From: a virus
IMG/VR virus record: IMGVR_UViG_3300003690_000031
Location: 1-34,501 of that record
Direction: 5' to 3' (one strand)
DNA: 34,501 nucleotides
Position numbers and translations under genes: made by a program
The notes under the pieces: model-generated
The model's input: the letters and a program-made list of their open reading frames with translations, nothing else
Told to the model about the DNA's origin: nothing
Databases searched by the model: none
Shown: positions 4,398-7,479 of the stretch, one piece after another
Position numbering within the stretch: the first letter of the stretch is position 1
Layout of the letters: the number at the start of each line of letters is the position of its first letter

Positions 4398-4582
4398 ACT
4401 TTATATACTAGAGTCTTACTCTTCTCCTTTTCTTTGATAGATTGCAAATGTAAGTCCGATTCCATATCCTTATAGAACTCTTCAGCTTCCCCACAGTTTC
4501 CTCTCCAATCATATCCTAATCTCTTATCGAGTTCTTCGATAAACCTATCTTCAGCCTGTTGCCACTTCACTCTGATTCTCAT
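4394..4582 (-). CDS. Small hypothetical protein downstream of the GIY-YIG gene
   Basis: 62 residues from ATG 4582; a TTG at 4603 would add seven residues but is weaker. An AGG lies just before the ATG. The start overlaps the 3' end of the endonuclease gene, so the two are probably co-translated. The sequence is charged and helical (VKWQQAEDRFIEELDKRLGY, then GEAEEFYKDMESDL), with one cysteine and no known motif. It could be an accessory factor of the endonuclease or a leftover cargo ORF. Its stop overlaps that of the convergent zinc-finger gene. Confidence 0.55.
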   Translation of the reverse strand: MRIRVKWQQAEDRFIEELDKRLGYDWRGNCGEAEEFYKDMESDLHLQSIKEKEKSKTLVYKV

Positions 4583-5144
4583 TTTCCTGTCCCTTGTCTT
4601 CAATTTTTATTCCTGTATATAAATATGAGTTCAAACACCTATGTCCGTAGACTTCTTTGTAATGCTTAATCATAACATATTCATTACGTCGTAGTTCTTC
4701 CTCATCATTTACATATATTAGCACCTTGCCTGTACAATCTTCAGGTTCATATCCATTGAAATATTTATTTGTATGAATCTTCTTGGCTATCTTAGCCCTA
4801 TGTACAGCTAACCTATCGCTAAAGTTCTGAACTGTTGAACCTATATAGGTTGAACCATCAGTAAAGAATAGCTGATAGACACAGGGTTTAGATCTTTTCT
4901 TTCTAGATCTAGTACAGTTGTTTCTATGACAGGGTTTACAATATCTATTAAGCCCATCACTCTGCCTCTTATCCTTACCAAAATCCATTTCTGGATAACT
5001 CTCCTTACATTTTTTACATACCTTCATATCAGGTAACAGTAACTTTCTCTTCTCAAACTCTTCACTAGATAATATCTTCATATAAAATTCTCCTGTTGGA
5101 TTCCCAGCCATATCTAAAACTGGTATTTTAATAGTCTTACCCAT
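4551..5144 (-). CDS. Zinc-ribbon GIY-YIG endonuclease (free-standing, homing type)
   Basis: 197 residues with a strong AAAGGAG before the ATG. Residues 43-73 form a zinc ribbon (CKKC ... CKPCH). The GIY-YIG nuclease domain follows at about 88-175: CVYQLFF stands for the GIY strand, TYIGST (99-104) is the YIG strand, Arg111 lies in the RLAVHR helix, Glu155 in NEYVMIKHY, and Asn172 in CLNSY. These match the catalytic Tyr, Tyr, Arg, Glu and Asn positions of the family. It should make site-specific DNA breaks, as phage homing endonucleases do. It is the only clear minus-strand gene besides its small partner, and has its own promoter and terminators. That marks it as an inserted mobile unit rather than part of the phage operons. 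Confidence 0.88.
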   Translation of the reverse strand: MGKTIKIPVLDMAGNPTGEFYMKILSSEEFEKRKLLLPDMKVCKKCKESYPEMDFGKDKRQSDGLNRYCKPCHRNNCTRSRKKRSKPCVYQLFFTDGSTYIGSTVQNFSDRLAVHRAKIAKKIHTNKYFNGYEPEDCTGKVLIYVNDEEELRRNEYVMIKHYKEVYGHRCLNSYLYTGIKIEDKGQENENQSEVATG

Positions 5145-5174
5145 TAACTTTTCTCCTTTAGTGGTTATATTATA

Positions 5175-5202
5175 AGTATATCACAATCAGAAATTTTGTT
5201 AA
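5175..5202 (-). promoter_or_regulatory. Sigma70-type promoter for the GIY-YIG unit
   Basis: On the minus strand TTAACA (5197-5202), a 16-base spacer and TATACT (5175-5180) are seen; TGA just before TATACT makes an extended -10. It lies about 30 bases upstream of the endonuclease start. Its layout copies that of the divergent rightward promoter. Confidence 0.65.
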
Positions 5203-5240
5203 TATATTAGTATATTTATTTACGTTTTCTTTTCTTTTTA

Positions 5241-5268
5241 TTGACATTTTTTCTGGTTGTGGTATACT
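5241..5268 (+). promoter_or_regulatory. Near-consensus sigma70 promoter
   Basis: TTGACA (5241-5246), a 16-base spacer and TATACT (5263-5268) with TGG as an extended -10. The -35 is perfect, and the 40 bases before it are A/T tracts that could act as an UP element. The predicted start is near 5275. No good gene start follows for about 400 bases, so the first product is probably an RNA or long leader. It is the best promoter by eye in the window. Confidence 0.8.
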
Positions 5269-5274
5269 TATATT

Positions 5275-5458
5275 GTAGCTAAAGATATACTTTAACTAGA
5301 CGTACAATGACCGAACAGTAATCACCTTAAGTGATGAACGTAACGGGACAACGTGTTGTTATATCCTCTGTTACGATTGTGTAATGAATGTTAGTAGGTT
5401 GTTGCCCCCGCAGTGTATTGTTATAACAACGGCTGCTGTCGTAGCAGTTTTCTTTTCT
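5275..5458 (+). ncRNA. Candidate ~180-nt structured small RNA or long leader
   Basis: The stretch lies between a near-consensus promoter and an intrinsic terminator. Local hairpins seen are ATCAC-CTTAA-GTGAT (5321-5335) and a stem closing 5341-5373 (TAACGGG with a TCTGTTA end, enclosing ACAA-CGTG-TTGT). TTGTTATAACAA is a palindrome at 5419-5430. GTTGTTATA (5355-5363) can also pair with TATAACAAC (5422-5430), competing with the local stems, so two folds are possible. Only micro-ORFs lie here (5334-5381 and 5384-5473, joined by TAATG but without ribosome sites). It matches no RNA family I recognise; it is not a tRNA, and I see no tmRNA or group I intron core. Confidence 0.5.
5431..5458 (+). terminator. 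Intrinsic terminator of the candidate RNA
   Basis: CTGCTG (5433-5438) and TAGCAG (5442-5447) close a TCG loop, with two further G-U pairs possible at the base. TTTTCTTTTCT follows directly. A short stem plus U-rich tail fits a modest Rho-independent terminator that some polymerases would read through. Confidence 0.5.
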
Positions 5459-5671
5459 GACTTGAGTCAGTGATCTAACCCATCGCTGATGATATGGGTC
5501 AGCGGTGAGCATTCAACTGGGGGGTTTTCTGGTGGGACAGTTAAAGAAAATTAAATAATATGATATTATAATACAAACCCTCAGAGTCTTCACTACGTTC
5601 AGACTCTTCGATGGTTAATAAAATAAAATAATATTAAAAAATTATCAGACTATTTATTACAGGAGAATAAT
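5459..5671 (+). other. Gene-free stretch with hairpins
   Basis: No credible ORF was seen here. Structures include CTGAC-TTGA-GTCAG (5457-5470) and a 9-bp stem CATCGCTGA with TCAGCGGTG (5481-5489/5499-5507). That stem competes with ACCCAT/ATGGGT (5478-5483/5494-5499). AGAGTCT/AGACTCT is at 5583-5589/5601-5607, flanked by AACC and GGTT. GGGGG at 5519-5523 could pair with CCCCC at 5405-5409 in the upstream RNA. A TATAAT at 5567-5572 has no matching -35. The stretch may be read-through leader RNA of the following operon. Confidence 0.45.
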
Positions 5672-5860
5672 ATACTTAAGGTAGGAGACATAGCTACATT
5701 CACTAATAGATATATTATTACAAATGATGAGAATGAAGGTAAGATAATGTTAGTAACTAAATTAATAGACAGTTCAGAAGCTGGGGATTTGGTTGAGGTA
5801 CTATTAAATACATCACTACATATATTCCCAGCATATTTATTGGAGAGATTAAATGACTAA
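5672..5860 (+). CDS. Small SH3-like phage protein with non-standard start
   Basis: The frame is open from 5627 to the stop at 5858-5860, but has no ATG, GTG or TTG near its ribosome site AGGAG (5661-5665). An ATA at 5672, six bases after AGGAG, gives (M)LKVGDIATF, the N-terminal pattern of small SH3-like phage proteins (KVGD-hydrophobic at the start; IFPAYLLERL at the end). The alternative is ATG 5747 with AAGG before it, giving a 37-residue product that loses the KVGD strand. I prefer the longer form. It overlaps the next ATG by eight bases. This could be a real AUA start, a decayed start codon or a sequencing error. Confidence 0.5.
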   Translation: MLKVGDIATFTNRYIITNDENEGKIMLVTKLIDSSEAGDLVEVLLNTSLHIFPAYLLERLND

Positions 5861-6056
5861 AGATATTAAGACAGCATTGAAAGGTTCAATGGGTCAGGTT
5901 GGTGGTGACCTATTAGATATAATGGAAAGGATTGCAGACTTAGATGCGAGAGTCCATATGATAGAAAGAAAGATGACATTCCTAGTATTACCTAAAGAAA
6001 GAACTGAAGATGAAGAAGACTATTGGACTAACATAAATCCTGGTGGTACAGATTAG
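5853..6056 (+). CDS. Small coiled-coil protein, 67 aa
   Basis: Starts inside the end of the previous gene with GGAGAG upstream. Residues 15-45 form a heptad-like helix (LLDIMERIADLDARVHMIER) likely to dimerise, and the tail is acidic then Gly-rich. No family was recognised. The stop TAG overlaps the next GTG. Confidence 0.7.
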   Translation: MTKDIKTALKGSMGQVGGDLLDIMERIADLDARVHMIERKMTFLVLPKERTEDEEDYWTNINPGGTD

Positions 6057-6388: not shown

Positions 6389-6929
6389 AGAGATAATGAC
6401 AAAGAAAGGGAATGAGTTAGTTATAGATGTAGCTCACGAACTAATAGAAGAAGAGAAACATCAAAAGAAAACTGTATACTTTCAGGCTAAGTTTGTTGAC
6501 GGTTTGTTAGCAGAAACTATTAATCAGTTGAAGCAACAGATGGATGCATTAGTATTAATATTCTTCGATGAAGAAACTGGAGACAGAGAAAGCTTTAAAG
6601 GTCCAAAGAAAAAGATGGAATCTATTAAAGCAACCAGTGAAATATTCTTGGGAGAGTTAAATATATTGAATGAATGTTTGTCACCATACAATAAAGCTTC
6701 TCTTAATCATAAACATAAAGCAGTAAGAGAGATAGTGAAAGAAGGATTCAAAAGACTAAATGATAATAGAGAAGGGCTGAAGGAAGCAAAGAATATTAAC
6801 AATCATTATGTCACCCAGTTTGCTAAAATATTAACTTTGTTTATGACTAACTTCCACGTTACATTACACGATAAGACTCCTAGAAAAGAACGTAGTAGGA
6901 TAGTAAGGGAATACTGCGAAGGTGGCTAA
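6381..6929 (+). CDS. Helical hypothetical protein, 182 aa
   Basis: ATG 6381 was chosen for its GGAGGAAGGG ribosome site; an earlier in-frame ATG at 6312 would add 23 Lys-rich residues that merely shadow the preceding gene. It is charged and mostly helical: an acidic N-terminus (IEEEKHQKK), a central helix (LLAETINQLKQQMDALVLIF) and a basic C-terminus (KTPRKERSRIVREY). It lies directly upstream of the sigma-like gene and overlaps it by eight bases, so the two are made together and may act together. No known domain was recognised. Confidence 0.72.
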   Translation: MAEEIMTKKGNELVIDVAHELIEEEKHQKKTVYFQAKFVDGLLAETINQLKQQMDALVLIFFDEETGDRESFKGPKKKMESIKATSEIFLGELNILNECLSPYNKASLNHKHKAVREIVKEGFKRLNDNREGLKEAKNINNHYVTQFAKILTLFMTNFHVTLHDKTPRKERSRIVREYCEGG

Positions 6930-7479
6930 AGAGTGTGATAGGCACCAAAGAAAGCACACTATAGACAGTACCTCTGTACTATGTACCCACCCAGAATGTA
7001 TAAAGAGACTGACTCATAGCTTAAGTAAAAGAAGTAGAGCCCTTCAGAAACTATACAAGATAGTTGAGACTCATCATTCAGCTGATGATTTAGTAGGATA
7101 CATAGTAGAGAGGTTACTGTTAGAGAAAGCTGAAGGAAAACCATTAATAATAAATGTAACTTGGTTGTTCTTTACATTAAACAGATTCGTTAGAGATGAG
7201 ATGATACAGATAGCTATTGAAGATGAACTCCAACAGATTACTGAAGATATATCAGAGAGTTATTCAGGATGGTACAAAAGAAAGAATCCTATTACTCCTG
7301 AACATATATTAATAGGCAAAGATATATTGAGTTGGATAGCTAAAGAATATTCAGAACCTTATGTCTTATATCTGACAGGATTTATTGGTAAGATGGACCT
7401 AATGAAGTTAACTGAAACAAACTATCAGACACTGAACAAAGTACTGAAGAGACTCAAAGAAAGAATCATCGACCTCTAA
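6922..7479 (+). CDS. Divergent sigma-factor-like protein with possible N-terminal zinc ribbon
   Basis: 185 residues from GTG 6922, overlapping the upstream gene. Residues 5-26 hold C5, H8, C21 and C26, a possible zinc ribbon. Residues 52-100 resemble sigma70 region 2: SADDLVGYIVERLLL, then WLFFTLNRFVRDEM, like the DLVQE...WLF.IARN.. pattern of ECF sigmas. Residues 133-183 resemble region 4: a short helix, then a helix-turn-helix (LMKLTETNYQTLNKVLKRLK). The match is to a pattern only and is weak; a sigma-like or other DNA-binding regulator is the best call. It is the last gene before an extended -10 promoter, so it could direct RNA polymerase to the repeated promoter motif. A structural comparison would decide. 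Confidence 0.5.
   Translation: MAKECDRHQRKHTIDSTSVLCTHPECIKRLTHSLSKRSRALQKLYKIVETHHSADDLVGYIVERLLLEKAEGKPLIINVTWLFFTLNRFVRDEMIQIAIEDELQQITEDISESYSGWYKRKNPITPEHILIGKDILSWIAKEYSEPYVLYLTGFIGKMDLMKLTETNYQTLNKVLKRLKERIIDL

Follow-up and report, generated by a model that had tools for sequence, protein, structure and literature searches.

What is transcribed from the one sizeable intergenic region of this phage, and where does the transcript end? The window, i.e., the whole stretch of DNA analysed, is an IMG/VR record of 34,501 bases. Its gap at 5145-5668 (524 bp) is the sole noncoding stretch of more than 107 bp among the genes assigned. An earlier note had placed here a discrete small RNA of about 180 nt that runs from a strong promoter through a region with no credible gene to a hairpin with a T tail, with competing pairings and no known RNA family. 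Our tentative answer, held with somewhat less than even confidence, is a structured 5' leader RNA that contains an attenuator-like hairpin and is situated in the control region of the phage (Table 1).

Table 1. Features of the control region and its flanking genes; positions refer to the window
Feature	Positions	Strand	Remarks
Zinc-finger + GIY-YIG nuclease gene	4551-5144	-	Pfam PF01541, E 7.7e-9; divergently transcribed
Divergent promoter, TTAACA-N16-TATACT, TG extension	5175-5202	-	Inverted copy of the plus-strand promoter, ahead of the GIY-YIG gene
Main rightward promoter, TTGACA-N16-TATACT, TG extension	5241-5268	+	Conserved spacer TTCTGGTTGTGG, extended -10
Structured noncoding RNA body	5275-5545	+	Start predicted at about 5275; 3' limit deduced from conservation
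P2 hairpin (CCG..GT.ATCAC/GTGAT..AC..CGG)	5311-5346	+	Invariant in the relative, so without covariation
P3, 5' arm GTTGTTATA	5355-5363	+	Pairs with 5422-5430
P4 (5373-5378/5397-5402)	5373-5402	+	Nested in P3; three double changes
CCCCC	5405-5409	+	Possible pseudoknot partner of GGGGG; invariant in both bodies, without covariation
P3, 3' arm TATAACAAC	5422-5430	+	Pairs with 5355-5363
Terminator/attenuator-like hairpin and tail TTTTCTTTTCT	5431-5458	+	Internal to the conserved region
P6 stem (5457-5464/5495-5502)	5457-5502	+	One double and two single changes; downstream of the supposed end
GGGGG	5519-5523	+	Pairs with CCCCC 5405-5409; invariant in both bodies
Origin-type hairpin, AACC..GGTT base, AGAGTCT/AGACTCT stem	5576-5616	+	Core CTTCACTACGTTCAGA at 5588-5603
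First gene of the rightward operon	5669-5861	+	From sequence and translation; homologous to L015:3618-3887 by eye

Searches with the major capsid protein led to records of the same gene order, and two relative genomes contain the region, G014 (locus L015) and G005 (locus L034). A further locus, L039, is nearly identical to L015, so that effectively two independent body sequences, window and L015, were compared. The window and G005 both measure about 34.5 kb, and their common gene order is opened at different points, which points to near-complete genomes that are circularly permuted; where the ends of the window are joined, no clean read-through in one frame was obtained. Terminase, portal, capsid and internal virion proteins are encoded in the window. 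No polymerase, helicase, initiator or O-like gene was recognisable among the window proteins scanned, and ARAGORN found neither tRNA nor tmRNA. A conserved protein of 185 amino acids (6922-7479) appeared sigma-factor-like by eye; it had no Pfam or PDB sequence match and gave a poor model (pLDDT 54). None of 50,697 phage records gave a useful nucleotide match, their terminase and portal relatives were only about 20-28 % identical, and no close relative was found among the genome contigs searched. The RNA occupies the one control point of a phage group that has no near relative in the phage record collection. On its left side, the nuclease gene has an orthologue in the same place in both relatives (59-63 % identity, alignment A3) and adjoins the RNA region in all three genomes. 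On its right side, the operon follows directly on the same strand, with no other clear terminator ahead. The first operon gene is conserved; it has no ATG, GTG or TTG start, but an AGGAG site followed by an ATA codon, and begins ATACTTAAGGTAGGAGAC.

The promoter proposed earlier proved to be the sole site with at least 11 of the 12 consensus positions in the 34,501 bases. Dinucleotide shuffles yielded 1.8 such sites per window by chance, a figure that dropped to 0.05 when the TG extension was required. In L015 and L034, spacer and -10 region (TTCTGGTTGTGGTATACTTAT) are conserved. The two promoters make up an inverted repeat whose 39-nt arms (5166-5204/5239-5277) are 79 % complementary and separated by 34 nt, and TTGTGGTATACTTAT occurs in only two copies in the window genome at up to one mismatch. 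The spacer shared by the divergent promoters suggests a common regulator. An identical 12-mer, GTTTTCTTTTCT, is present just upstream of the promoter (5224-5235) and at the T tail (5447-5458); the upstream copy is not shared in L015 and the repeat is perhaps due to chance. The 524-bp gap, with two divergent promoter copies, a leader and an origin-type hairpin in A+T-rich DNA, is best explained as the control region of the phage.

From the promoter onward, the window is homologous to the syntenic relative from about 5240 to 5643 (71-73 % identity), and the body homologue in G014, placed and oriented as in the window, has 73 % identity over 404 bases (E 6e-59). As had been claimed, the region has no credible gene: scattered single-base indels separate the window from the relative, and an antisense reading frame of 61 amino acids (5327-5512) was rejected as a gene in view of these indels and for want of a conserved protein. 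Positions 5308-5322 read ATG ACC GAA CAG TAA (MTEQ, stop) inside an invariant stretch of 25 nt; no ribosome-binding site was seen there. Rfam 15 (4227 models, including the group I intron) gave no match at gathering score and only chance-level matches even at E<=10. Scans with the body sequence returned only the known relative and two matches in unrelated sequence. In G005, promoter and 3' hairpin are kept around an unrelated noncoding sequence of 340 nt followed by a GIY-YIG gene (L034:3300-4190). This middle section was not detectable as a diverged copy of the body; hence not every member of the group requires the body.

Folded alone, the window sequence was no better than its shuffles (z +0.89); the support for the fold comes from comparison. 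Consensus folding (alifold) of the 5275-5545 alignment with L015 gave z -5.83 on the plus strand and -2.83 on the minus strand against class-preserving column shuffles. In a model of 54 pairs, including the hairpin 5576-5616, 100 % of the cells were paired and nine pairs were doubly changed. Shuffles led to an expectation of 3.0 ± 1.4 doubly compensated pairs with none of 500 reaching nine, and sliding the partners reduced pairing to 35-47 % and doubly compensated pairs to 0-2, controls that favour a structure chosen on the same, effectively two, body sequences. Summed over all helices, the excess of double changes was only moderate (14 vs 6.1 ± 2.9 in shuffles). The covariation is seen as support for the fold rather than proof. 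Compensating changes, which the earlier note had named as support for its proposal, were found in the comparison of two independent bodies, window and L015. The pairing of 5355-5363 with 5422-5430 it had pointed out is the best long helix: nine of nine pairs are kept in the relative, with two double changes (U-A to C-G and A-U to G-C) and one single change. Among 400 shuffled alignments, 5 gave a helix of this length with two double changes. When the window was folded as a single sequence, P3 had a probability of only 0.06, and the pair probability of P2c in window folds was 0.96-0.99.

Could the similarity be a mere trace of recent common ancestry in ordinary intergenic DNA? This explanation would allow for the fact that no more than two close bodies are known and that G005 has none. 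It is nevertheless improbable, as the proteins of neighbouring genes have diverged to about 40-60 % identity, blocks of 83-94 % identity (83 % in 5445-5474 and 5505-5534, 94 % in 5565-5594) alternate with regions of 40-50 %, and changes in pairs are compensated. A degenerate mobile element or ribozyme of the group I intron kind is very improbable. The order of P3, nested stem, C-tract, P3', stems and G-tract resembles the group I core topology, and all three genomes have a GIY-YIG gene next to the RNA, with a second one inside the G005 leader; but the Rfam group I model matched none of the three regions at E<=10, no gene is interrupted and the RNA begins at a promoter. This reading, with topology alone and no model match, was set aside. 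Synteny, covariation, the strand bias of the fold and the lack of an Rfam match support a structured, undescribed noncoding RNA under the promoter, as initially proposed. It is uncommon for a phage noncoding RNA to have covariation support while matching no Rfam family.

The hairpin with the T tail is present as described. It forms also in L015 (-5.3 vs -7.5 kcal/mol in the window), and AGCAGTTTTCTTTTCTG at this hairpin is identical in both. The T tail is interrupted by a C. Contrary to the proposal of a discrete RNA that ends near 5458, conservation, the covarying P6 and the CCCCC/GGGGG pair continue for about 85 nt, to about 5545. Since the region past the tail is about as conserved as that before it and P6 covaries, the unit is longer than proposed, and since conserved structure crosses the hairpin, at least some transcripts should read through. 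A trans-acting small RNA of about 183 nt (5275-5458) that regulates host or phage mRNAs by pairing would agree with the strong promoter, with the T-tail hairpin and its identical tail in the relative and with the invariant P2. We consider it unlikely: the 85 nt past the tail are equally conserved and contain a covarying stem and an invariant G-tract, the tail is interrupted, the stem is weak in the relative and the body has no second match in the phage genome. Of the attributes of a terminated trans-acting RNA, the locus has its own promoter, but the terminator does not end the conserved unit.

Alternative partners that covary with the 3' arm of the T-tail stem lie at 5417-5423 and 5355-5362, and P3, the terminator stem and a helix 5417-5423/5442-5448 compete for shared arms. 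For the L015 RNA, the predicted fold changed with length: P3/P4 prevailed at 159 nt (0.86/0.86) and the alternative helix 5417-5423/5442-5448 at 296 nt (0.84), whereas the predicted ensemble of the window RNA showed no clear length-dependent switch. The switchable fold suspected earlier is plausible on these predictions. For the attenuating leader that we favour, host RNA polymerase would start at the 5241-5268 promoter and produce a structured 5' leader of about 270 nt, from 5275 to about 5545, followed by the hairpin 5576-5616 and the rightward operon. The hairpin 5431-5458 would act as attenuator inside the leader. With P3 and the local stem formed, transcription could stop and an RNA of about 180 nt would be released. 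With the 3' arm of the stem taken by upstream arms, or with P6 and the CCCCC/GGGGG pair folded, transcription would continue into the operon. Passage of the polymerase through the control region may also serve replication.

A role in replication is suggested by the second hairpin, 5576-5616, which contains the most conserved block and is kept in all three genomes, where the stems differ by compensated changes (GAGTC/GACTC, GACTC/GAGTC and GTCTC/GAGAC). The exact core CTTCACTACGTTCAGA is present in all three within a complementary but variable outer stem, with one perfect copy in the window. As DNA, the hairpin folds with z -2.6/-2.8. A+T-rich sequences flank it on both sides (5544-5572 and 5617-5645). 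The template strand TCTGAACGTAGTGAAGA, read by sequence, can fold into a stem that has tandem G.A pairs and is capped by a GTA loop (TGAAC-GTA-GTGAA), a form which we take to be akin to GNA mini-hairpins. The 16-nt core was found in at least 119 viral stretches (loci L040-L157); as the exact core was the search key, its identity is no evidence, while its location and the variable complementary stems are. Among 81 distinct core contexts, 74 % had at least four further complementary base pairs, vs 7 % with shuffled partners, in 20 different 4-bp arms. Within long reading frames, the core is translated mostly in one frame (SSLRSE). The 46 dereplicated core-bearing proteins have only SSLRS in common. 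At least 20 of them have a match in one primosomal PHROG, and many have one in other replication-initiation families; all ten proteins chosen for dissimilarity match replication families. These genes, O-like, DnaD-like and primosomal, come from many phages. In 30 measured genes the position of the core is 0.54 ± 0.05 of the gene length, and short tandem repeats usually precede it. In L041, L064 and L088 one initiator gene has two tandem hairpins (e.g., SSLRSEHSSLRSEC), and the loop of the second is a variant such as CTTCGCTTCGCTCAG. The core also tops long A+T-rich hairpins outside long frames (L042, L045, L049, L051, L052, L054, L058, L059, L066, L070, L078 and L118), repeated about 1.1 kb apart in several loci. 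The core string was not found in the literature searched, and searches for DUF1376 with origin and for GCGAAGC hairpins gave nothing relevant.

The lambdoid origin lies in the middle of gene O (PMC7466680), and from such a location we infer an origin role of the hairpin. It would be a testable marker of a possible replication start, here and in many phages with unmapped origins. The region may be a replication origin with the RNA as activator or primer: polymerase would start at 5241, the RNA would fold, and the G-tract together with the A+T-rich DNA around 5576-5616 would open for priming, in the manner of ColE1 RNA II or of the lambda origin when activated by transcription. This alternative, which we consider unlikely, gains from the occurrence of the core in the middle of dozens of initiator genes, as in the lambdoid origin (PMC7466680), from the A+T-rich flanks, from the association of hairpin and promoter in all three genomes and from the lack of a recognisable replication gene among the scanned window proteins. 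Against it, 5100-5750 has no iterons or tandem repeats except a 15-bp A+T run, the G-tract is absent at the corresponding place in G005, an unrecognised initiator may be encoded elsewhere, and the origin role of the hairpin is itself deduced from location. An attenuating leader and an origin-activating or priming RNA can both hold. More generally, the fixed-loop hairpin might be a general phage origin module, here outside an initiator gene and downstream of a promoter, with the structured RNA from that promoter controlling or priming replication, an idea that we regard as doubtful. If true, one noncoding locus would couple transcription and replication in a 34.5-kb phage without a recognisable replication protein.

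Several known systems resemble parts of this arrangement. In ColE1, the RNA II primer presents the order promoter, structured RNA, G-tract and A+T-rich DNA. The same order is found in the window, but without homology, in a phage genome and with the G-tract absent at the corresponding place in G005. The lambda origin needs transcription (PMC7466680), and the hairpin core type occurs in the middle of O-like, DnaD-like and primosomal genes. Unlike the lambdoid origin, the window hairpin is noncoding, with no iterons found and no O-like gene recognised; the A+T-rich stretch is present (5544-5572, 5617-5645). In phage HK022, putR begins about 270 nt downstream of the start site, and put RNAs have about 70 nt and two stem-loops (PMC9378689). 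As antiterminators, put RNAs let RNA polymerase pass terminators in cis. Like putL and putR, the window RNA is a structured RNA just past a phage sigma-70 promoter and ahead of a long operon, a likeness for which homology was examined via Rfam only. With its length of about 270 nt, its long-range stem, its possible pseudoknot and the terminator-like hairpin inside it, it departs from the short put format near an early promoter. From T-box and ribosomal-protein leaders the window RNA differs in that it matches no Rfam leader family, and the length-dependent switch of the predicted fold was seen in L015 and was not clear in the window. With these attenuator leaders it would share, in a 5' leader, a terminator-like hairpin amid predicted helices that exclude one another, and the alternative helices that use the terminator arm are conserved.
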